Assembly: GCA_029964075.1 (NCBI GenBank)
Contig: CM057149.1
Location: 30,766,197 to 30,830,196, forward strand
Length of the DNA stretch: 64,000 nt
DNA from: Patiria pectinifera
Lineage: Eukaryota > Echinodermata > Asteroidea > Valvatida > Asterinidae
Direction of reading: 5' to 3'
Below, piece by piece: positions 5,438 through 60,900 of the stretch. A model generated the notes under the pieces. The model made no database searches, was not told the origin of the DNA, and saw nothing but the letters and a program-made list of their open reading frames with translations. The translations under genes and the position numbers were made by a program. How positions within the stretch are numbered: position 1 is the stretch's first letter; each line of letters starts with the position of its first letter.

Positions 5438-7530
5438 ATGGCTTCTTCATTCGATCATCACCAGCCGACTCCAGAAATGTACCAGAAGGCCTACCACAGC
5501 TACAACAACAAGCTGGTCACCATGACATTCAGGTAATTTCTGGTGTTTTAAAATTTTTTTTTTTTATATAGTTTTGATGGTGAAGTTTGAAGCTAAAAAT
5601 CTGTCTTCAATTAAAAAAAAGAGAGTAATGATCAGTGTTCACAATGATGAACTGTGCAGCTCTTTCCTCCTTGAACAATTTGTCAATTAGCATGTGTTAT
5701 TGTGACAGATGAACCTGCTTCATTTTTCTGCATTGGGTGTCTGCAACCTAATCCGGTTTGTTAGTGTGACGTCATCTCAATGCAACCATGCGTACTTCCC
5801 ACGGTGTAGCATTACACGAATGGAACCGGAAGTTAACGCACCTCGAGCGTTTGTCCAATGGACACAAGTTTAATTATCAGTGGTGCGCGCACGTGTATGA
5901 CGTTTTTACTAACGAACCGGATAGGCTTACATTTTTTGGTTGCTTTTGTGCCTGTAGCACACGAAAAAACATCTGCCTGAACTATTGTTGGTTTCCAATA
6001 ATTAAAACAAATGTCAAGTAAGTTTTTGGTTACACACCTTTGTTTCGACACCCCTTTGTTCCGACACCCCCATGTTCTGACTGCACATATTCCTATCCCT
6101 AACCCTAACATAGGGGTGTCGGAACATAGGGATGTCGAAACATAGAGCAGGCACCAAATGTTTCAACACAAAGCAGTTTTTCATTGATGTCTCATTCAAA
6201 AGCGATTAGCTTTTGTGAAGCTAGAAAAATAGCAATTTCAAAAAGAAAAACATAATTTTTTCGAATGCGAAACTCAAAAATAGCACGGGGAGATTAAGTT
6301 TAATGAATCCATTGAATCACATACCTCACTGAGCGGACTCTATTTTTTGCCTGGTACCCGTGCAGCGCCTGGCTCCTGTACCACGAGAGGAAGAAACGCC
6401 GTCGCCTGATGATGGCCCGCAAGATGGTGCAAGCCGCCGAGTACTACGACATGCGCAAGCAGCGGGTGCACCTGCAGCAATGGGTCAAGTGGTTCCGCTT
6501 CCGCCAAGACCGACAGGAACGTAAGAGACAGTGAGAAATCCATTAACACAGACAGGACATCCTTGTTGGGTTTAGATCTGGCAAGAGAGAGAGAGAGAGA
6601 GTGGCTGGCTTAGCTGGCATTGATGATAAATTGGCTTTTCAGATGTCAGGATGGGATTTTTACATTTGCCTGAGGGCATCCTTTTGTTATTCTTTGGTCT
6701 TCATTTCTGACTGACCCTATTTTTGGCTCCCAACCCGAGGAAAAAAATACTTGGCTCTTAATGTCGACCCTTCAGACAGGATATCCTTGTTTGGTTTAGA
6801 TCCTGGCGAGAGAGAGAGAGAGTGGCTGGCCCAGCTGGCATTGATGATAAATTGGCTTTTCAGATGTCAGGATGGGATTTTTACATTTGCCTGAGGGCAT
6901 CCTTTTGTTATTCTTTGGTCTTCATTTCTGACTGACCCTATTTTTGGCTCCCAACCCGAGGAAAAAAAAACTTGGCTCTTAATGCCGACCCTGTCTACAA
7001 CCCCCACTAACAAACAAATTAATTAATGAAAAAAATTGAATATCAATTTCAGGCAATCAGGCTCTGTATTTATGAAAAGCTATGGAAAATAATGTCTGAT
7101 CTCCCTCGAAAAATAAGTTGTACGTATTTCGCGCGCGAACCAGCACAGTGCGCACATGCGATGTCACGTCCAAGGGGCTCTCAAAAGTGGTAAAAACGCA
7201 CCCTCTTTTGTTGGCGCACGGACCCCATGGCAACTAATGCAATCAAGGAAGATGCAAGGATGTTGTCTCCATCATATCAGGGCTTTATAGTTCTAATATT
7301 TTGTGCATAGTGCTGCTAAAGTCAACTACTTCTTGCCAGAAATGGATTTGTTATTTTGTTAAGTGATATGCACTTGGCATAATTATTTAATTTAACATGA
7401 TTTCTTTCTCATGCGTGTAGGTGCCTATAACATCATCATTAATGTGTACAACATGTCCCTATCTCGTCTTGTCTTTGAGGCCTGGCACAATGTGATGCTG
7501 GAGGCACGGCGTACCAGGGAGTACTTTGAG
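5438..7530 (+). CDS. FBXL13: FBXL13 N-terminal exons 1-3 (basic helical region)
   Basis: These three exons encode about 120 residues before the F-box. They are rich in Trp, Tyr, Lys and Arg in repeated W-x-x-Y/R patterns (AWLLYHERKKRR, QQWVKWFRFRQDR, FEAWHNVMLEARR). This looks like consecutive amphipathic helices spaced by about 35 residues, such as are seen in axonemal scaffold proteins. Exon 1 ends in phase 2 and splices to C at 6366 (AG|C gives Ser); exon 2 ends in phase 1; exon 3 ends in phase 0. The intron between exons 2 and 3 holds a 224-bp tandem duplication. Confidence 0.85.
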
Positions 7531-16500: not shown

Positions 16501-19500
16501 CGACGTCCATTAACATCCGGGTTATTTTAAGTGAGATACGACCTTTTGACATTCTGAAACTTGCGTTTGTGCTTTTATGCCATTTTAGGAGCTATGACCT
16601 TGTTGCACTGACACGACGAAATTACTTAGTAACTTCTCAGACGAAATAAAAGAAAGGTTTGAATGCCATATTTGGGAAATTTTGTATATAAAAACCGGGC
16701 TACATGGAAAACCAAAGCAGATTTCACGTGTATGTGCATTTTAACGTGTGACAGATGACACTCGTGAAAGTCGTGGTTTACACTTAAAAGTTATATAGGT
16801 CTTTAGACATTAGCCAGGATTTGAATATTGGGTTTGGATTTCTTTTACAGGTAGCCGTGTTTTACTTCAATAGGGCACCCAGATCCTGTACTACCCATAA
16901 AAGCATGCCACTAAGATGGATACATGCCATATGTGCTGTATCTCAGAAACTATCTACTGGGACAACATAATGATCACTGACACTTTAAATCACAACTGCA
17001 ATATATGTACTTCATTAAAACTTACATTATATGCTGAGCGTCATTGCTTGCCAAAGTAACCAGTTTGTACGCCACAAGTCTTCAGAATCAAGTGTGAGTC
17101 ATGATAGTCAAATCTAAGTCTATTTTTAAGTCTGTAGCAAGTCTTGAAAAAACTTGTTACAGACTCAAGTCTGATTCCTGCAGCCAATCTCACTAAACAG
17201 TTCTTAACTATTATGCCATGCGTAGGATTTAAGCAACAAATTTGTTGCACAACTGCGCAATAACTTATGATTGATTTAATGAAACTTGGCGTACCTGTGC
17301 AACATTTTGATAATTTCAACATCTTGCATGAGGATAATAACGGCATTTACGACGGCTATTTGTGTATAATTTCTGTTTGGACACAAAACAGTCATTGAAT
17401 CACCTCCACCTGTCATAATTAGATTTGTCCAGCTCTCTTAGGAATCGTGTGGCAACTCTAAAACTGTCATGGGTAAAAGTTCATTTTCAGTGGCTACGCC
17501 ATAACTTGCACATACCTGAAATGATTGTGTAAGTTGTTGCTTATGTAGTGGATTTACGCACTATGAAACTTTCGTGGCAATGTGTCATAACTGAAATGTT
17601 GGGCAGCATAGTGTGTCGTGAGATCGGCTGCTTGACTCAAGTCCTAAACTCTGCACCTTGCTGGACATGGTAATATGATTGACCAGTGTTGCAACCGAAT
17701 TCCGGTCTAAATTTATCCACTAGACTAGTCAAATCATCATTGGCTAGAGTTCATTCAAATATTTATGATAAGCCATAGGTTTTCAGGATCAAACTTGAAG
17801 GCGGCATCATTCTGAAAAGTATTTAATGACAGGGTACTCTATTTTTTTCGTTCAGGGAATTCGAAGTTGAGTGATGCGTCTTTCAAGTACATCGGCAGGT
17901 ACTGCTCTGATCTCAGACATGTGTATGTGGTAGACTGCCCTCGTGTGACGGATGCGAGCCTGAAGTCGTTGGCGCAGTGTCGCAACATCAACGTGCTGAA
18001 CGTAGCTGACTGCATCAGGTATTCATGGCCATTAAGATGGTCCGCAGACAAAGTTGTTGGTTGCCGCATTTTTAATTTACACTTTGTTGCCCCGATATTG
18101 TCTAATCCAACATTTGATTTTGCATTATACTGATACATTTCAGGCTGTAGAGCCCTGGCACCAATGCTTTATGAAGGACATGATGATAACACATGTTTCA
18201 AAGGGAATGTGGTTTTTATTACTATGTAGTAATATCAACAAAAAGAAAAATCTCCTCTTATAAATATGTAGTAATAGTAGTGTCAAAAATAACAATGAAA
18301 TTTTGTAACTGAAGATGGATTCCCTGTGCTATTTTCAAGTTTCACCTCGAAAAATACATTTGTTTTTTTCAATTGCCATTTTCCTAGCAATATATAAGTT
18401 ATTCACTTTTGAATGAGACATTGAACAAACAAAAAATCGTTTAGTTATTGAATTGAAATAATTTCTTCGCAAAATTTGAATATTGGCTGTCAGACAATAC
18501 TTTGGCTCTTGCAGGGCGGGTTATTTGTGCGCAAAACGAACGCCCTTTTTTTAGAGGGCTGCAGATGTCCAAATTCGGAATAAATTTTTTTTTTTTAAAA
18601 ACAAAAAATACAAATTGAACAGGAATTAGAAGAAAAAAGTCCATCGTGTGAAGAGCTAAGGGTATGCATCTTTAAAGACCCTTTCTTTTTATGGAGAAAA
18701 CAAAAGCTTATCGCCACCAACAATACTTTTGCATACTGCAGGATCAGTGATAATGGAGTGCGCAGCCTGGTTGAGGGACCATCAGGACCTAAAATCAGGG
18801 AGATGAATCTGACCAACTGCGTGCGGGTCAGCGATGTCTCCATACTGAAAATCATGCAGAAGTGAGTGCTTACTGAAACAGACCTTGTGGCAGTATTGGA
18901 ACAAAGTTCCCACAGCCACCCTAGAATTTGGGAAATCAGGGAAAACCTTGGAAATGAGTATCCATTTTTTTTCCAGTCAGAGGAAACTCAGGGAATTTGG
19001 GGAAAAAAATACAAAAAATCAGGGGAAAACTCAAGGAATTTGGGGGAAACACCAAAAATCAGGGGAAAACTCAGGGAATTTGGGAAAAACACCCCCAAAA
19101 TCAGGGGGAAACTGATGTAATTTGGGAAAAACAACAAAACCAGGGAAAACTCTGGGAATTTGGAAAACCACCAAAATCAGGAAAACTCTTGGAATTTGGA
19201 AAAAACACCAAAAATGAGTGGAAACTCATGAGATATATGACAGTAAAATTCACCCCCCAACCCCCCCCCCCAAATACCAGCCCAGTGTTTTGCCAGTTTG
19301 GCGTATGTGCATTTTGTGCCATGTTGTCCAAGTTGTGTCCATGGACTGACTGACTATGGTGGCTTTTTAATGTTTATTCAGTGTGATTATTATCAGTATC
19401 TTAGTTGCTTTGCTACAACCACCTCTTGACTTCCCTGCAACCTCATTAAAGTAGAATATATTTTTCACAAGAATTTTGGAAATTTCTCCGGGAAATTTTC

Positions 19501-22500: not shown

Positions 22501-23832
22501 CAATGCTTTGTAAATTAAGTTGGTTAATAAAGGGATCCTTGATTCTTTATAAAATGCATTTCCTTAAAAAAAATTAAGAGCCCACTAACATCCCTGTGTG
22601 TACCCACTGACATGGCTGCAGTAAGTGTGACACATTTCCTGATGGCTCATATTTGTATGTTTCCTGTCCCTTAGTTGACAGATCTGAGCATACAGTACCT
22701 GTCCGGGGTCTGCCACTATCTGATCAGTCTGGACATCTCGGGCTGCGTCAACGTCAGCGACAAGTCCATCAGGTACCTACGGAAAGGATGCAAGCGCATG
22801 CGGGTACTGGTCATGCTGTACTGCAAGCATATATCTAAGTAAGTGGAGACTAGAAACTTTGGAATAAACCACATAGGGAAACTGACTAGGTGCAATATAA
22901 TTAGTTAGTATTTTTCTCTTAATGTAAATTTGAACAAAGATATTGACTGGAGTAGGGTTTGAACCTGCGATCTCTGGATGGCTGTTCCAGTACTCTACCA
23001 ACTGAGCTATCCAGCCCTGTGTTGGCAGTTTCCCTGCTTGGTCAGTGTCTTTGTTCAAGGGGCGCTAGTCAGAAGCCATAAACCCCCATATGCCATGTAG
23101 CCAAGGATCACGCCCAAAGTCATGATACCAGCAACATTAGCAAATATTAATTGCACCTATAAGCTACACAGGTTTTTAAAATTTTCTGGTAAAAACTGTA
23201 GTTTTCTAAGTTCAGTTGATCCTGTTTCAACGACGAAAATCAAGATTTCACTCAGTCTATATAATTTTGTAATCCAGCACTACTCCATATCTCTTGTTTG
23301 TATAAATTGAAAAATATTTTATTTACTTTTTTTCAGAGCATCTTACACCAAGCTGGCCGCCAAAATTGAAAGGGTCAATTGGAGCGACGACCCCGTACCC
23401 AGCAGCTTCGGTCCCGGGTTCGACTACCTAGCCGCCCTCCAGAAGGCCGACGCCGACAAGAAAAGGAAGGAAAAGGAAAAAGAGAAAGAAAAAGAGAAAG
23501 AAAAGGAGATGGAAAAGGCCAAGGGTTCGGGGGAAGGAGACCTGAACGAGAAAAGCAAAGACGAGGACAAGATGAGTAAGATCTTTGAGTCGGAGTCCAA
23601 GGTGTCCGAGGCCGACCTGAAGGAGTACGAGAGGAGCGTCAGGATTTCTTACTCCACTACCAACGGGGAGGATAGGAGAAGGATTGAAGGGGAGGACTTG
23701 TGGGGCGGGGAGAAATCGGACGACGGGGACGGGACAGCTGACGAGGACAGACATGAGAAGGAAGATGGCGTGGATGATAAGAAAATGGAACCGCCCACTA
23801 CAGTTGAGGAAACTCCGCCCATTAGCCAGTGA
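5438..23832 (+). CDS. FBXL13: F-box/LRR protein 13, N-DRC subunit 6 (16 exons)
   Basis: The product is a structural subunit of the nexin-dynein regulatory complex, which links outer doublets in motile cilia and flagella. Exons: 5438-5532, 6366-6520, 7421-7530, 8832-8933, 9987-10082, 10317-10342, 12574-12683, 13732-13885, 15220-15349, 15978-16197, 17856-18018, 18742-18861, 19668-19794, 21664-21882, 22675-22838 and 23337-23832. Every boundary is GT/AG and all phases join, giving 828 residues. The F-box is at about residues 142-188, leucine-rich repeats run from about 196 to 664, and a charged tail follows. Close alignment with human FBXL13 (from memory) includes SLAYCRRF.DKGLQYL, KLIYLDLSGC and HYLISLDISGC. 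The start is the first ATG in the first exon with a favourable accATGg context; extra 5' exons (430-523) cannot be excluded. The human protein is 735 residues; the extra length lies mainly in the C-terminal tail. Confidence 0.95.
6041..6146. repeat. Palindromic repeat with 'cgacacccctatgttccg' motif
   Basis: A segment with tttcgacacccctttgttcc is followed, after a short centre containing cctatccctaaccctaac, by its inverted counterpart gtgtcggaacatagggatgtcg. A clearly related copy lies at 48086-48235 in a Wnt intron. It is non-coding and of unknown class. Confidence 0.6.
6549..6994. repeat. Tandem duplication, 224-bp period, with GA microsatellite
   Basis: Two nearly identical head-to-tail copies begin at 6549 and 6773 (both start cagacagg). 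They share long stretches such as the segment beginning ttggcttttcagatgtcagg. Each copy carries a (GA)n run of different length. The duplication lies in an FBXL13 intron and is recent, judging by its identity. Confidence 0.85.
7941..8646. mobile_element. TTAA-flanked TIR element (piggyBac-like MITE), copy A
   Basis: The element is bounded by TTAA at both ends (7941-7944 and 8643-8646). It has 23-bp inverted termini, left agatatagtccatcatttg and right caaatgatggactatagct. A second, uninterrupted copy is at 19907-20317. TTAA target duplication is the hallmark of piggyBac-type transposition; no transposase frame is present. Copy A is longer because another repeat is inserted in it (8082-8311). 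Confidence 0.8.
8082..8311 (+). mobile_element. Nested insertion with 12-bp target duplication
   Basis: A 206-bp sequence (8094-8299) interrupts the TTAA element. It is flanked on both sides by agcattctaaga. The homologous element at 19907-20317 has the undisturbed site (agcattctaggatc), which confirms insertion. The inserted sequence contains the motif ctagtcgaaacgttgag and ends ttaccgcaaaccgaaacg. It matches one half of the larger foldback at 62025-62345. Confidence 0.85.
8832..10342 (+). CDS. FBXL13: FBXL13 exons 4-6 (F-box)
   Basis: Exons 8832-8933, 9987-10082 and 10317-10342 together encode the F-box. It starts at ISLLPRKLAIKIFSYL and runs through DLADVSRCAQVCRQW to LWSRVNLSS. The Leu-Pro start, the VCRxW motif and the terminal LW are the F-box signature that contacts SKP1. 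The sixth exon is only 26 nt, unusually short, and is flanked by clear gtctttcag and gtaatt sites. Confidence 0.92.
10974..11027. repeat. Conserved short hairpin, copy 1
   Basis: A 54-bp segment contains the stem tttgggactctc / gagagttccaaa around a loop aatactgtgtat. The same segment recurs at 35800-35852 with a single internal difference. It lies in an FBXL13 intron. Its nature is unknown. Confidence 0.6.
11466..12205. mobile_element. Nested inverted-repeat element with tandem palindromes
   Basis: The outer ends are inverted copies of ggtaatccttacttttagga. Inside, a second inverted pair (cccgatgctgattggctg at 11711 and its complement near 11915) surrounds two tandem 67-bp palindromes. These lie at 11741-11807 and 11819-11885, and each reads agtctggttcccagacc and back. 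No coding capacity is seen. It lies in an FBXL13 intron. Confidence 0.75.
12574..22838 (+). CDS. FBXL13: FBXL13 exons 7-15 (leucine-rich repeats)
   Basis: Nine exons encode about 468 residues of cysteine-containing LRRs of the F-box/LRR type. Repeated L-x-x-L-x-L-S-x-C and (I/V)TDxx(L/V/I) patterns recur roughly every 24-27 residues. Examples are LQDLNLSECEGVNDDVM, LIYLDLSGC, LERLDLSHCTQLTDGAI and LISLDISGCVNVSDKSI. Splice phases are consistent across all nine. Introns here carry many TIR elements, a TTAA element and a minisatellite, but none interrupts an exon. Confidence 0.93.
12735..12995. repeat. SINE-like repeat with degenerate tRNA B box
   Basis: The 12735-12855 part recurs in opposite orientation at about 20670-20775 (shared ggtcgaaccgaaggcatg and ttaggcagc). 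The following part contains gggaatcaaacccaggccac, a B-box-like complement. This resembles the SINEs at 46770-46965 and 59165-59365. I read it as SINE debris in an FBXL13 intron. Confidence 0.55.
13913..14510. mobile_element. Foldback region rich in 'cgtcgtaagttgcgacgtg' motifs
   Basis: Both flanks contain several copies, in both orientations, of the palindromic-looking unit cgtcgtaagttgcgacgtg. The left flank (13913-14005) and right flank (14340-14510) are broadly inverted to each other around an AT-rich centre. Subterminal repeats of this type are typical of non-autonomous DNA transposons. The exact ends are unclear. Confidence 0.5.
18915..19235. repeat. Minisatellite, about 37-bp unit
   Basis: The unit reads approximately aaaatcaggggaaaactcag followed by ggaatttgggaaaaacacc. 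It is repeated about eight times with drift, immediately downstream of FBXL13 exon 12. Open frames through it arise from the repeat and are not genes. Related single units continue near 19500. Confidence 0.8.
19907..20317. mobile_element. TTAA-flanked TIR element, copy B (intact)
   Basis: This copy has the same 23-bp inverted ends as 7941-8646, sits between TTAA and TTAA, and has no internal insertion. It is 411 bp. More diverged relatives can be recognised at 14525-14835 and 26305-26698 by the shared gttgaagtttcagctcag segment. Confidence 0.8.
21070..21550. repeat. Cluster of 'gtggccgccagataatgc' short repeats
   Basis: Variants of ggttgccagataatgctg and gtggccgccagataatgc occur about ten times. 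Most of the cluster lies at 21110-21310, with a smaller one at 21480-21545. This looks like the subterminal repeat arrays of a DNA transposon or a decayed satellite. It lies in the intron before FBXL13 exon 14. Confidence 0.5.
22944..23018 (-). repeat. tRNA-like SINE head
   Basis: On the minus strand an almost complete cloverleaf can be read. It has acceptor arm GGCTGG...CCAGTC, A box TAGCTCAGTTGGTAGAG, a CTGGA/TCCAG anticodon stem and B box GGTTCAAACCC. The anticodon loop lacks the invariant T33, so it is not a convincing functional tRNA. I call it a tRNA-derived SINE or tRNA pseudogene, in the last FBXL13 intron. Confidence 0.6.
23337..23832 (+). CDS. FBXL13: FBXL13 last exon, charged C-terminal tail
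   Basis: The last exon finishes the LRR domain (ASYTKLAAKIERVNW, then a Pro-rich WSDDPVPSSFG segment that matches the human C-terminus). It then adds about 130 residues that human FBXL13 lacks. The addition begins with a Lys/Glu run at about residues 705-726 (DKKRKEKEKEKEKEKEKE) likely to form a single helix or coiled coil. An acidic region ending at TGA 23830-23832 follows. The opposite strand has a 146-residue open frame here, which is only a shadow of the purine-rich sequence. Confidence 0.9.
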
Positions 23833-41652: not shown

Positions 41653-41658
41653 TTTATT
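41653..41658 (-). terminator. Candidate poly(A) signal of the Ig/ITIM gene
   Basis: AATAAA on the minus strand, 176 bp after the stop codon of the Ig receptor gene. It is the nearest canonical signal. Confidence 0.5.
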
Positions 41659-41833
41659 CATAGAAAAAAAAAAAGTCGAAGAGCACAGGGAACACAACAT
41701 TAATATTCCCCCCCCCCTTAAATTGTTGCTGCTAGCTTTGATGGCACTTCATACTCATGCAGATATGTCCTGCATAGGTCTTCTCGGGCTCTGCCTCTTT
41801 ATCTTGACAGGATGTGGAACAGTCAATTTTGCC

Positions 41834-43369
41834 TCAAGCAGTAGGATCGTTCTTGCACTCTGGGTAGGTAGCATACGCATACTCGAGGCTTTCCTTGCAC
41901 GCAGGAGAATCCTGCAGTTCCAGGTACTCCGAGGTGATAGGACCATTCTTTCCTCGATCGAGGGTTTCCTTGCACGCAGGAGAATCCTGCAGTCCCAGGT
42001 ACTCAGAGGTGATAGGACCATCCTTATCCTCTAGGCTTTCCTCGCACGCAGGAGAACCCTGCAGTTCCAGGTACTCCGAGGTGATAGGACCATCCTTTCC
42101 TCGATCGAGGCTTTCCTTGCACGCAGGAGAATCCTGCAGTTCCAGGTACTCGGAGGTGATAGGACCATCCTTATCCTCTAGGCTTTCCTTGCACGCAGGA
42201 GAACCCTGCAGTTCCAGGTACTCAGAGGTGATCGGACCATCCTCCTGGACTGCAGCATAAGCGTATTCTTGCATTTCTTGACCCTGCTCTCCCTCAACCG
42301 TTATGGCATAATACCTATGGTCTGCTTGCGTCATTCTCGGTCCTGCTGGGGGGCTTGTGGACTTCCGGGAATGTTTCCTTTTTTGCCGCACGAGCAAGAT
42401 GATGAGGACAATCACTGCTACTGCTAGGACCGCTGCCGCCATGATGAAAGCCACAGCGACTGGAGATAATTGGTCATTCGTTGGACAAGACGGGGGTTTG
42501 TCTGTGAGTGACCCTGTGGTGAACCTGCTACTCCTAGTTGTCTCTTCCCACTGCACCCATGTGGAACTGACACTCATTGTTGCCTGTTCCCGGTAGATTA
42601 CTTCAGCCCTCGCGGTGGTAGAAGTCCCCTCCTCAACCCTAGATGCTGCTGGCAGAATGGTGGCAGTCGGTAAGATTCCCAGCAGCATCGCAGAGCAGTT
42701 ACGCGGCTCATCCAAGGCGGGTGTAGTCATGATGCAAGTGAAAGTCACGCCATTGTCTTGAGCTTTTAACTGATATGGATGAAGAATTGAATCAGTCACT
42801 GGACCTACCAACTGTTCATTCCCTTTGTAATATGTGATGTTTGGAGCAGGTTTACCACCTTGAACATTACAACTAAGATTCACACTGTCTCCCACAGCCG
42901 CTGATGCAGGTTCTACACGGCACCATGGTGACTGTGGGCTTGGTGGAACCAAAACAGTAAGCTCAGCCGCGCCAGCAGTCTCCGGTGTTTCCGTGGCAGA
43001 ACCATACAGACACGAATATGTCCCTTCATCAGTTTCCTGTACATTTGTGATCCTCAAAGTAAACTCGTCTTTGCTCTCATCACCGATGATCGACAGACGT
43101 TGTTCCAGCTGTGGGGGTAGAGTGGGCGCTGAATATAGCCGTCTATCAACGCTAAGGTATAATGAGCTCTCCCAATGATTCCAGTAGACGGTAGAATCGC
43201 CTGCATTTGCCAAGTCACAAATGAACTCGACTGTGTCTCCTGCACGAACTACGGCATCCTGCGGGCCTCGTTCTACTGTGGGTTGTGCCTGAACACGACC
43301 ACAAGCAAAACTTACTAGGAAGAAATACAGCAGACCAGCGCGAAGTATAAATTTATCAATGGGAGACAT
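41834..43369 (-). CDS. Intronless two-Ig-domain receptor with ITIM array
   Basis: A single 511-codon frame encodes a type I membrane protein. Residues 1-28 are a signal peptide (FILRAGLLYFFLVSFACG core). Ig domain 1 is at about 30-141 (Cys51, Cys120 in DEGTYSC). Ig domain 2 is at about 143-232 (Cys167, Cys212, plus a possible extra pair Cys150/Cys225). A Ser/Thr-rich stalk runs to about 300, a transmembrane helix is at about 302-327, followed by basic RQKRKHSRK. The cytoplasmic tail has five copies of a 24/25-residue unit, each with ITSEYLEL (one is YLGL), tyrosines at 384, 408, 433, 457 and 482. SxYxxL fits the ITIM consensus that recruits SH2 phosphatases in inhibitory receptors. No family name can be assigned. 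The absence of introns contrasts with every other gene here and suggests retroposition or a lineage-specific origin. Confidence 0.85.
   Translation of the reverse strand: MSPIDKFILRAGLLYFFLVSFACGRVQAQPTVERGPQDAVVRAGDTVEFICDLANAGDSTVYWNHWESSLYLSVDRRLYSAPTLPPQLEQRLSIIGDESKDEFTLRITNVQETDEGTYSCLYGSATETPETAGAAELTVLVPPSPQSPWCRVEPASAAVGDSVNLSCNVQGGKPAPNITYYKGNEQLVGPVTDSILHPYQLKAQDNGVTFTCIMTTPALDEPRNCSAMLLGILPTATILPAASRVEEGTSTTARAEVIYREQATMSVSSTWVQWEETTRSSRFTTGSLTDKPPSCPTNDQLSPVAVAFIMAAAVLAVAVIVLIILLVRQKRKHSRKSTSPPAGPRMTQADHRYYAITVEGEQGQEMQEYAYAAVQEDGPITSEYLELQGSPACKESLEDKDGPITSEYLELQDSPACKESLDRGKDGPITSEYLELQGSPACEESLEDKDGPITSEYLGLQDSPACKETLDRGKNGPITSEYLELQDSPACKESLEYAYATYPECKNDPTA
41885..42244 (-). 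repeat. Coding minisatellite of ITIM-like units
   Basis: Five tandem units of alternating 72 and 75 bp form a 147-bp higher-order period. Each encodes DGPITSEYLELQ(G/D)SPAC(K/E)E(S/T)L plus either EDK or DRGK linkers. The array is flanked on both sides by an EYAYA sequence (residues 368-372 and 497 onward). Units are nearly identical at the DNA level, which implies recent expansion or homogenisation. Confidence 0.92.
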
Positions 43370-43519: not shown

Positions 43520-43740
43520 GTACGAGGAAACTACGCAGCCCCATTATCACACCATTTTCACTTTTATATTTTTAGATTTACTTCCTGTTTTCGTAACACA
43601 TCCTTTGAAGGACTCTTGTCATTGATACTATACTATAGGTATCAAACAGAAACAAAAAAAATCCTGTTTACAAAAGGACATTTATATTATCATACTGTTC
43701 CAAGTTCAAAAGTCATAATAAACGTAATTGTGGTAAACAT

Positions 43741-44394
43741 TTCGTCACCGACACCACGAAGTAACACTCATGTACATACCGGTAAAAACTAGCAATCGGA
43801 GAAAACGGCATCTAAAGTTGAACGCCTTCTAAAACAACACTTTGCGTCAAAACGACAGAGTATTTTCAGTTGGGTTTCTCGTTGTGGACACTTGATGAAT
43901 TGAATTTATTAAATCTACTGTTTTTCACCCGATTGTGTATTAAATAAACAAGAAATAAGAGAAAAAAAGATGAGTGTTAGTTCGTGAAACCGAAAAAGCT
44001 GCGAAACCGTGTTAATTTTCGTTTTCACGAAGTAACACTCTTCAATGTATACAGCACGAGGAAAGTGCAACTTCAGGTCAGCGTGCGCGCGCTCATACAA
44101 CTTATTACAAGAAGAGTGTTACTTCGTGAAAAGGTTTTTGCTCACTTGTACTTATGAGCAGAGTGTGCGCCATGCATTGCAATGGTAAATGGAACTTGAA
44201 AATTGTCACTTTTGCGCAAAAGTTGCCATGGATACTTAGCGTAATTATTAATAAAAGTAAAGCCCTTGAAGCTTTGAAACTTCGTGCAATGGTAGGCCTT
44301 GATGAATAATGTTTAAAACTCAAAAAAAACCTGAAAATCGAAAAAAAAAATGGTTTAACACGGTAGAGTGTTACTTCGTGGTGTCGGTGACGAA
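43741..44394. mobile_element. MITE with perfect 29-bp terminal inverted repeats
   Basis: The left end ttcgtcaccgacaccacgaa (29 bp in all, to 43769) is the exact reverse complement of 44366-44394. Internal partial copies of the same motif (cgaagtaacactctt at about 44027, gaagagtgttacttcgtg at about 44111) form a second inverted pair. There is no transposase. Perfect ends imply recent activity. It sits about 220 bp upstream of the Ig gene TATA box. Confidence 0.85.
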
Positions 44395-45388
44395 TCGTTG
44401 TCTGCTGTGATATAGTGTATGGTTTTTGTATGCGCTCATCAATTCGGGGTACCATATTGACGCTCGTTTCTCGTACAAAATACCATGGTTCCTAATTACC
44501 ATGTACTCTCAAAGAGGATATGGGTTTTCTGACTTTTCTCAGATTCAATCAGATCCAGTTGTTACTTTTGTGTTTACTTATAATTGTTTATATAAACATA
44601 GTATTTATTTTAATTGCATAGCAAGTGTACGCTTTGGTCATGGATATACCTGTATGTTATTGAGTACGAGTTCGATCCATAGTTCGACTAATTCTGATCG
44701 AACGCGGCACGCTAGTCGAGGATTGTTCTGGACTAGTCTAGTCGACTATTCATGACAGCATATACCGCGGTTGGTTTTGGTCGCGCAACGATTTATAGCT
44801 GGTTGTCAATAGCAATTTTCATAGTATAATGCAGAGGGGACAAACTACCGACAAAAATGGCGGAAAAACGAAAATGTGAGTGCTATATATAGTTATGTCA
44901 CTATAGGTTGCAGACCAGTAAATAAACTTCCATATTCATGTACCCAATCCGGCATCTTTGCAGGGTACACCGACAATAATTTAGTGGTTCATCACCAGAA
45001 AAACGTGTTTTGACCTAGTATTAATTCTTAAATTTCAAATTTTAAGAACACGTCCCCAAGTTAATCCGTTTTATAGTCAAGTGGCTCATAATAGTTTGGA
45101 CAAGGCCGCGACCGACTCACAGTGGTAACGTCAAAAGCACTCAACTTGGTAGATAGATCCCTATATATAGCCCTGGTGAAGTTACAGGGTGAGACACAAA
45201 AAGCGAAACCCCAACCTCAAAAATATATTCTATATTTAAAAATAAAGTAGCACCAAACATAATGATTGGAAAGCCACTTTCATAAGCTACTTTTAGATGA
45301 AAAAAATACTGGAATTGCCAAATCCATTTAAAGAATATCACCATTTAAACGCAACGACCCCAAAACCTGTTTTGTCCCCCCCAAAAGT

Positions 45389-57996: not shown

Positions 57997-60900
57997 ATGC
58001 TGATGACAAGATGTCTTTGCTCGCATATCATTTTGTTCTGCGTGTTGGCAAGTTCAAGCTACGGTAAGTAGTCAGTTAAAGGGAAGATACACCATTTGCA
58101 AACATCAAAAAACGAAATGATCAAATTATCACGAAATATTTTACTAGATTGTTAGGGAATGACACTAGTCTAAAGCATCATGTAAAGTTGTGGTGGGTGT
58201 TCTGACATTTTCAAGAAAAACTGTATTTTTCCAACGCTGTATTTTTCCGAACTGCGTTGGGTCACAGAGGTGGAATGCGAGGAAAGTATACCGCCACGCC
58301 AACCTGACTCCCATGTTTGCATCTCATAGTGGGAGTGTGATAGTGGGAGTACCCCCTTTTACCTTTTTTGGTGTTGTCCCTGTTTTTAGTGGGAGTGTTT
58401 TGTTGAGGATTCGATGGCACTAATTTTGCGCGGTAGAGAACACTGCTGATCTTCTAGAAGAAATTATTTAGAATACGGTCAAAGACGACAACTGCAGCAG
58501 CCAACTTCGTCCAGAAGCGGCAGGGAAAAGCCCGTAGCGTCTAGACCAGACCTTTTGTAATTAATAACATATACTAAATTTCATTTTGTAAAATTCGATC
58601 ATGCTGGTATGACGACAAGATGTCTTTGCTCGGATATCATTTTGTTCTGTATGTTGGCATGTTCAAGCCAAGTAGTCAGCTAAATCATTCACACATGAAT
58701 TTCTCTCATTGTGCACACTATGTATCCTATACCTTAGTACCTTAGTATCCTATTCCTTAGTCTGTCTCCTGGAAAAGACAAAAAAGCCACTGTTTTGCGA
58801 CATTTCCTGAGACGATTTCCGCCGTGATTGTTGTTGGTAGCTTATGTTGTTGTCCTCACGTTCAGTATGTGACACCACCTTCACCTTCTCAGTATCTACA
58901 GGAAATACACATCCGACCCGGATATTAGTTCTACTTGTTAATCTACATGTACATGACATGCCAGATGTCACCAAATCAATTGCCGAAAATAGCCCTGTTT
59001 GTCCACAAACACAAGTCTAGGTGTTTGTGTTACTTTTTGGTTTGTATATTTGAAACAATCAGTGACTTAGTGGTTGGGTGGGAGGGAGGCAGGCAGTTTT
59101 ACCCTTTTGATGTATCTGTATAATTATTGTAGTAAGCAAAGCATCCCAGCCAGGGGAAACATCACACCAACTTAGAGAGAAGACAGTGAGAAGAAATTAC
59201 AGTTTTAGAGGTGGGAGTAAAAGCCCAGAAAATATTCTGGGGAAAACCCACGGAATCAGGTAGGGACTGAAAACCCAATCCACATATTGACCCAGGCGGG
59301 ATTCGAACCCGGGTCACAGCGGTGGAAGGCGAGGAAAGTACCGCCACGCCCACCTGACCCCCATGTTGTCCCTCATATTGGGAGTGTTTTACCCATGGTT
59401 TTACCCCTTTTTACCGTTTTGGTGTTGTCCCTGTTTTTAGTGGGTGTGTTTTGTTGAGGCTTCGATGGCACTAATTTTGTGCGGTAGAGAACACTGCTGA
59501 TCTTCTAGAAGAAACTCTTCAGAGTACTGTCAAAGACGAAAAACTGCAGCAGCCAACAATATCGTCTAGAAGTGGCAGGGAAAAGCCCGTAGCGTCTAGA
59601 TTAGACCTTCTGTAATTAATAACACATAATAAGTTTCATTTTGTAAATTCGATCATGTTGGTATAGAGCCCTCAACTAGGGTACCAGTTGAGTTTTTGCG
59701 TCATGTTTTTAAAAAATATATTTCCTAGTTTGAAATTAGATCATTGTTGGTTAATTCCCTGCGTAAATTCGGACGTACATATCAGACAGTTTAACGAGCT
59801 TTTGTTGGTAGTGTGAATGTGATACATTAGTAATGTGTGACATCTAGTGAAGAGAAAAACAATTACAGGCCAAACAAAAGCAATGTACAACCAGCTTTAC
59901 GACCTTGTAAAATCATGTGGCCGGACGTACAAAAAGAGCTGGAATTTACGGAATTGCCCATAGAGATGAGTATGAATATCGCATCGAATGTTTCGTGATA
60001 TGTAATACGCTTCGCGTTCGTGTGAAGTAAAGAGCCGGGCTTTAGCCTGACTAACTCTTAAAAATCCCGGGTCAGATTCGACCAAAATCTGGGTCAAAAT
60101 GCCACTTGTTTGGGTCACATATAGCCTGGCCATTGACCAAGAAAATTGAAAAAATATTATTAATAATAAATATAATAAAAAAGAAATACGCGAAAAAAAT
60201 TATCATTTTGACCCCAAAGAGTGGCAGATCAGACCAGACCCTGATTTCGGTCGAGTGCACTATATCGACAACAGCTTCGTCGCTACCTAGTCGAATGCCG
60301 GCTTAGAGTCACTATTTTAGCCTTGTCAAAAAAGATCAGAGTCAACCCGTCATTAATGACATTTTTTTTCTTTTTTCTATTCTTGTCATGATTAGCTCAA
60401 ATTCCCGATGCACTTCATATTGTTTTATTGACCGAGGAGGCCCCCCAGTGGTCGTTCCAGTTCCCAAATTACACTCATGGCTTCTACCCAGATGAAGTAC
60501 TCAGTATCTGGCTGATCCGAGTCGACAGAGGCCGCAGAGTGACTTTCGATTTCGACGTGATAGAGATTGCGGGAAATGACGAGCTGCAGATCGGGAACGG
60601 GATCGATGCTTCGGACTTGGCCTCCGTCTTGCGTGACAACGTCATCGTTGATTTCACCGGGAATTTGACTGGGGTCGGCGGGGCTCGAGTCGCGTCTAAC
60701 GGTCACGAGGCCTGGATGAAGTTCCAAAGTTTTCATGTCTCCTCTTGCCGCGGGTTTTCGGTGACAGTGAGGCAAGAAGGAGCGCCATCATCGATCAAAG
60801 AAAACGGTGGGTGTTTGGCGGAGTCCAGCCATCAGAAGTCAACAGATTCCATACAAGTCTTTTAGTCTCAAGTAAAACTACTTAATTTTATATAACTGTG

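Follow-up and report, generated by a model that had tools for sequence, protein, structure and literature searches.

Vertebrate inhibitory receptors such as PD-1, BTLA, SIRPalpha, the Siglecs and PECAM-1 are single-pass membrane proteins with tails that fit the ITIM consensus, and to our knowledge such ITIM/ITSM tails are not DNA tandem repeats. The consensus, S/I/V/LxYxxI/V/L, is taken from PMC8631942, whose sections used here also place the tyrosines of PD-1 and BTLA 25 residues apart, a distance thought to allow 1:1 bivalent binding of the tandem-SH2 phosphatases SHP1/SHP2, name leucine at pY+1 among the residues sufficient for association of PD-1 with SHP1, and report an ITIM-then-ITSM order in all but one human ITIM/ITSM receptor. 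Among invertebrates, tails of the ITIM or ITAM type have been reported for the fester co-receptors (FcoR) of Botryllus and the candidate allorecognition receptors of Hydractinia (PMC12065747). Tails made of short repeats are found in the chicken BG receptors, Ig-type proteins of which some have an ITIM (PMC4046983), and tandemly duplicated docking segments occur in the Helicobacter protein CagA, where the number of SHP2-docking EPIYA-C segments has a strong effect, two or more of them binding more than a hundredfold better than a single one (PMC4623810).

The gene described here lies in a 64-kb window (the whole stretch of DNA analysed) and belongs, as judged from its sequence, to a known kind of receptor gene; it looks intact, and its tail is unusual. 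With the vertebrate receptors it shares the single-pass layout, the ITIM consensus, the 25-residue tyrosine spacing of PD-1/BTLA and the nonpolar pY+1 residue of several ITIM/ITSM receptors, but it differs in having five near-identical units, and the likeness is one of features, with no orthology implied. The ITIM-type tail is also shared with FcoR and the Hydractinia receptors, for which a tandem array is not described in the portion of PMC12065747 used here, whereas the ectodomains of FcoR are built differently (V Ig, sushi and two C2 Ig domains; PMC12065747). In chicken BG, the repeats are 21-nt exons encoding heptads, and the ITIM sits in unspliced intron sequence outside the repeat (PMC4046983). 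CagA, finally, is an injected bacterial effector with another motif and provides an analogy of mechanism only, by which duplication of docking segments can matter. Among the matches listed in a search of the open-licence literature (titles and the starts of abstracts), nothing dealt with ITIMs arranged in tandem or with ITIM-bearing receptors of sea stars.

The signal peptide, two Ig-like domains and transmembrane helix that the first-pass annotation had recognised were all recovered when the open reading frame (ORF) was analysed with Pfam and AlphaFold (Table 1). Pfam found two Ig-domain stretches in the translated ORF, with best matches to Ig_3 at residues 30-120 (E 8.7e-16) and to Ig_2 at residues 148-223. 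The AlphaFold model, for which 11 family sequences were used, had a mean pLDDT of 62 and showed helices at 3-22 and 303-333 and a confident Ig pair at about 30-235, while the tail was mostly below 50 and thus mostly disordered. The signal peptide is presumably cleaved after residue 28. The product is consequently predicted to be a single-pass Ig-type membrane protein with the S/I/V/LxYxxI/V/L motif on the cytoplasmic side.

Table 1. Positions of the receptor features and of further elements in the window
Feature	Position	Strand	Remarks
Receptor ORF, uninterrupted	41834..43369	-	511 aa; ectodomain homologous to Patiria miniata and Acanthaster planci proteins
TATA-like element TATATAA	43511..43517	-	148 bases upstream of ATG; pattern match only
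Signal peptide, aa 1-28	43286..43369	-	helix 3-22 in AlphaFold model; start aligns with Patiria relatives
Ig domain 1, V/I-set like, aa 30-141	42947..43282	-	Pfam Ig_3/I-set/V-set; model pLDDT mostly >85
Ig domain 2, aa 148-223	42701..42928	-	Pfam Ig_2; AlphaFold model
Junction of in-frame Ig3 loss (about 42620)	42614..42626	-	66 aa between the flanks in P0001 and P0002
Transmembrane helix, aa 303-333	42371..42463	-	AlphaFold model
Tandem array	41882-42243		TRF: period 75, 89% matches; period 147, 95% matches; five units at 42238-41873
ITIM unit 1, type A, SEYLEL, aa 378-401	42167..42238	-	
ITIM unit 2, type B, SEYLEL, aa 402-426	42092..42166	-	
ITIM unit 3, type A, SEYLEL, aa 427-450	42020..42091	-	
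ITIM unit 4, type B, SEYLGL, aa 451-475	41945..42019	-	
ITIM unit 5, terminal, SEYLEL, aa 476-499	41873..41944	-	continues into LEYAYA.YPECKNDPTA flank, as in P0002
Out-of-frame remnants of P0002/P0004 C-terminal extension	41727..41820	-	tblastn pieces, two other frames
AATAAA polyadenylation-signal-like hexamer	41653..41658	-	176 bases after stop; pattern match only
Antisense ORF, 121 aa, across repeat array	41895-42260	+	unit lengths are multiples of three; taken as a by-product
MITE-like element	43736-44399		about 370-1030 bases upstream of receptor ATG
tRNA-Ala (anticodon AGC)	22944-23016	-	ARAGORN; also Rfam tRNA match
CUB-domain open stretch	60428-60865	+	Pfam E 2.8e-6; likely exon of a different gene
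Tandem array	6549-6992		two 221-base units (95%; TRF)
Tandem array	18977-19228		42/82-base array (TRF)

The MITE-like element upstream of the receptor is flanked by terminal inverted repeats of 34 nt (94% complementary, with an exact 21-base core), of which the window holds just two copies at up to 3 mismatches; these enclose 596 bases with further internal inverted repeats.

The tail contains the five 24/25-residue units that had been reported at first pass; they lie on the minus strand, with lengths of 24/25/24/25/24 residues in order. SEYLEL is found in four units and SEYLGL in one, and all five fit the ITIM consensus (PMC8631942), as had been claimed. Consecutive tyrosines are 24, 25, 24 and 25 residues apart, and leucine occupies pY+1 in every unit. 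The description of the array as homogenised held only in part: the units are indeed near-identical and in tandem, but they differ pairwise by 1-6 of 60 bases and the two dimers by 7 of 147 bases (about 5%), the longest exact direct repeat within the array being 47 bases. This degree of divergence indicates that the array is not brand new and speaks against slippage having been very recent or very frequent. Moreover, the units follow an A-B-A-B-terminal order, one spacer type being common to units 1 and 3 and another to units 2 and 4, a pattern suggesting that blocks of two units were duplicated as well.

Relatives of the receptor were sought with the whole protein, and among the best 7,995 candidates scored, 11 matched at E <=0.001. 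Ten of these are sea star proteins (six from Patiria miniata and four from Acanthaster planci); the eleventh, a tick NCAM2-like protein (P0011, E 3.2e-4), was excluded from alignment and tree. None of the matches listed is identical to the window protein, and the DNA is therefore probably that of another asterinid sea star, or the gene a copy left unannotated. Within the window itself, no further family members were found by tblastn at E up to 1e-3. In the protein search, the identity to the window protein was 79% for P0001 and 67% for P0002, over 49% of the query, and across the ectodomain in alignment A1 it was 73% for P0001, 65% for P0002, 69% for P0003 and 55% for P0004. The Ig1-Ig2 ectodomain of the window protein is thus homologous to that of the sea star family, and the cysteines C51, C120, C150, C167 and C212 are common to the aligned proteins. 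A tree of Ig1-Ig2 from the window protein and nine relatives (P0001-P0009; P0010 was left out for want of most of Ig1) placed P0001 as sister of the window protein with support of 100/99 and 80% identity, and the next set added P0002, P0003 and P0005 (97/92). No Pfam family was detected in P0010 at E up to 0.001, and its Ig domains are therefore recognised from the alignment.

Exactly one unit (DGPITSEYLELQDSPTCKESL) is present in each of P0002, P0003 and P0004, which have the tail module DGPITSEYLELQDSP.CKESL in common, while the motif is absent from P0001 as annotated, an end that could be wrong. The two ITIM-like sites of P0002-P0004 are only 15 residues apart. Receptors sharing the unit, for which a protein search had been proposed at first pass, were indeed recovered with tail residues 338-511 as query: P0002, P0004 and P0003 were found among the best 7,993 candidates, and P0010 appeared with a non-significant E of 0.2. 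Conversely, residues 270-419 of P0010 retrieved P0010 itself and nothing else among 131 candidates, with the proviso that both searches depend on shared 5-residue words and on similar length and could have missed distant arrays. In P0010, from Acanthaster, there are three sites, two of them diverged SEYL[DE]L motifs separated by 40 residues, and P0006 has a related SEYLTL site. In all four of P0006-P0009, which fall on two branches of the tree, LVYADL is followed 27-28 residues on by T[VM]YA[TSM]I, and these tails read as an ITIM and then an ITSM by the consensus of PMC8631942. P0005 ends in TVYAMI and has no SEYLEL, though its ectodomain groups with that of the window protein (97/92). The TxYxxI ending, present in five relatives (P0005-P0009), is thus the more widespread, and SEYLEL is the module characteristic of the window protein and P0002-P0004.

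P0004 (Patiria miniata LOC119745057) is a chimera in its own right, combining an ectodomain of the P0008 type (77% identity in Ig1, 90% in Ig2 and 94% in Ig3) with a tail of the P0002 type (P0002 being LOC119745058; 97% identity, against 15% for P0008), the switch lying near the stalk. In the sea star family, one type of ectodomain can therefore apparently acquire the tail of another, and gene conversion has been discussed for the CEA-family paired receptors in PMC2832619.

The occurrence of the motif was evaluated by scoring [SIVLT]xYxx[ILV] (ITIM or ITSM) in the tails against shuffled versions. In the window tail (184 aa), five motifs were present against 0.41 expected, and none of 5000 shuffles reached five, although the copies do not count as independent observations; when the array was collapsed to one unit, the single motif was not significant (0.13 expected, P 0.125). 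The credibility of the motif rests consequently on the family, where at least one ITIM/ITSM-like motif was found in nine of ten relatives and the tails exceeded shuffles at P <0.05 in eight of ten, relatives which are themselves mutually non-independent. The two exceptions were P0005 (P 0.08) and P0001 (no site). On the strength of the eight tails, chance occurrence was set aside as an explanation, which the window motif taken singly (P 0.125) would not have allowed.

The distribution of the unit suggests that the window gene has expanded a single SEYLEL unit to five. Unit 5 continues into the same flank as the unit of P0002, and the four other units are best read as additions. At one position all five window units carry alanine and the three Patiria units threonine, a difference consistent with the array having expanded, or been homogenised, after the split. 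The copy number, proposed in the first-pass annotation to vary between alleles, has thus changed between genes, from 0 or 1 unit in the related genes to 5 here. The homologous Patiria proteins P0001-P0004 differ from the window protein in other respects too, as all retain a third Ig domain and P0002/P0004 have a longer C-terminus. Third-domain residues were aligned in all ten relatives and are missing from the window ORF; in P0002, the only relative modelled, this domain was confident (pLDDT mostly around 90). The third domain was accordingly treated as an ancestral and not a defining trait, which makes the window protein a derived family member by the homology of the rest.

The in-frame loss of Ig3 and the out-of-frame C-terminal extension could also be signs of a decaying or untranscribed copy, and the copy number, known from one assembly, could be an assembly artefact. 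We consider this reading quite unlikely, as the ORF spans 511 codons without an internal stop, Ig1-Ig2 align to the relatives with the shared cysteines kept, and TATA-like and AATAAA elements are present as pattern matches. A candidate explanation for the single-exon ORF is that the gene is a retrocopy of a spliced gene, although the sense-strand sequence inspected downstream has no poly-A tract after AATAAA.

What the array does can be approached through its geometry. The explanation that we favour, and to which we would give about an even chance of being correct, is an inhibitory-type receptor in which the multiplied SEYLEL units create overlapping bivalent docking sites for a phosphatase. 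Binding of ligand would lead a Src-family kinase to phosphorylate the array tyrosines, and any pair of adjacent units, with its spacing of 24 or 25 residues, would engage both SH2 domains of a SHP-type phosphatase at once. Five units would make four overlapping bivalent docking sites per chain; phosphatase recruitment would therefore exceed that of the one-unit relatives, and the receptor would be a strongly inhibiting one. Of the phosphatase link drawn at first pass, the structural part stands, in that the spacing (24, 25, 24, 25 against 25 in PD-1/BTLA) and the pY+1 leucine are compatible with SHP docking, and the expression, phosphorylation, phosphatase recruitment and inhibitory action of the window receptor are predictions. 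Since the sites of P0002-P0004 are 15 residues apart, tandem duplication may have created a bivalent distance that these relatives lack. Of the mechanistic arguments none is stronger, and the unit length could match the docking distance by chance. The egg transcriptome of Patiria miniata includes Src-family kinases, and phosphatases are treated there as a class of SH2 proteins (PMC11593052). The terms SHP, PTPN11 and PTPN6 have 0 occurrences in the main text of that paper, which counts against this explanation. Also against it are the lack of the motif in the nearest relative, P0001 (as annotated), by which the motif may be dispensable in the window gene, the TVYAMI end without SEYLEL in P0005, the array substitutions that match neutral simulation (see below) and the loss of Ig3 and of some C-terminal sequence, by which the gene could be in decay in spite of its open frame.

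The array tyrosines could alternatively serve as docking sites for another protein with SH2 domains, PLCgamma being the foremost candidate and Syk/STAT types further ones, turning the tail into an activating multivalent scaffold. pY-L-E-L fits the preference of the PLCgamma N-SH2 domain as well, and PLCgamma too has two SH2 domains. In sea stars, PLCgamma and Src-family kinases act in the calcium rise at fertilisation (PMC11593052), and their documentation in Patiria miniata keeps this activating alternative alive. It nevertheless appears unlikely to us: in P0006-P0009 an ITIM precedes an ITSM, as is classical, and pY+1 is alanine, and the spacing of 24/25 fits the tandem-SH2 phosphatases (PMC8631942). 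An ITAM receptor was considered separately and rejected. The ITAM is defined by two Yxx(L/I) separated by 6-8 residues (PMC2832619), and the YxxL tyrosines of the array are 24-25 residues apart.

The array may also be viewed as a sorting tail. YxxPhi signals are bound by AP-2, and if YLEL/YLGL were such endocytosis signals, the array would serve mainly for AP-2 binding and uptake. All five sites fit Yxx(L/M/V/I/F), a motif described in PMC2832619 as endocytic and ITAM-like. An endocytic signal would not need the S at -2 and the E at -1, however, and this SEYL is common to P0002-P0004, P0006 and P0010; P0005-P0009 have TxYxxI sites as well. We regard the endocytic role as improbable.

A further explanation is that the minisatellite expanded neutrally in a tail that tolerates it, so that one unit works and the number has no dosage meaning. 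In the 20-codon core of the array, 4 synonymous and 4 nonsynonymous substitutions were counted, and a neutral simulation gave no sign of selection inside the array (P of at most 4 nonsynonymous changes, 0.20); the S, Y and +3 L anchors were all intact in 45% of the neutral simulations (P 0.45). The disorder of the tail in the AlphaFold model and the abundance of tandem repeats in the 64-kb window (29 TRF rows, some overlapping) are likewise in line with neutrality. On the other hand, the unit lengths are all multiples of three and none of the units contains a stop codon, a weak argument with five units, and SEYLEL has been kept in P0002-P0004 and in Acanthaster P0010. Taken together, we judge neutral expansion to be somewhat unlikely.

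A broader proposal can be made, namely that a coding minisatellite gives its host receptor an evolvable phosphatase dosage. The 24-25-residue pitch of the units equals the SHP docking distance, so that each added unit would add a whole docking site; unit number varies between genes (0, 1, 5), perhaps also between alleles, and tails would be exchanged by gene conversion or recombination. We put this forward as a doubtful extension. The signal strength of inhibitory receptors has mostly been discussed in terms of motif identity, and here it is the motif number that was changed, through tandem duplication. The series of 0, 1 and 5 units among related genes offers a ready-made test of whether phosphatase recruitment climbs steeply with copy number, and bears on whether repeat length can tune an immune-type receptor. 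The sea star tails that read by sequence as ITIM-then-ITSM bear in turn on the age of this wiring, and the window gene may represent a natural example of an inhibitory receptor tuned by repeat number.
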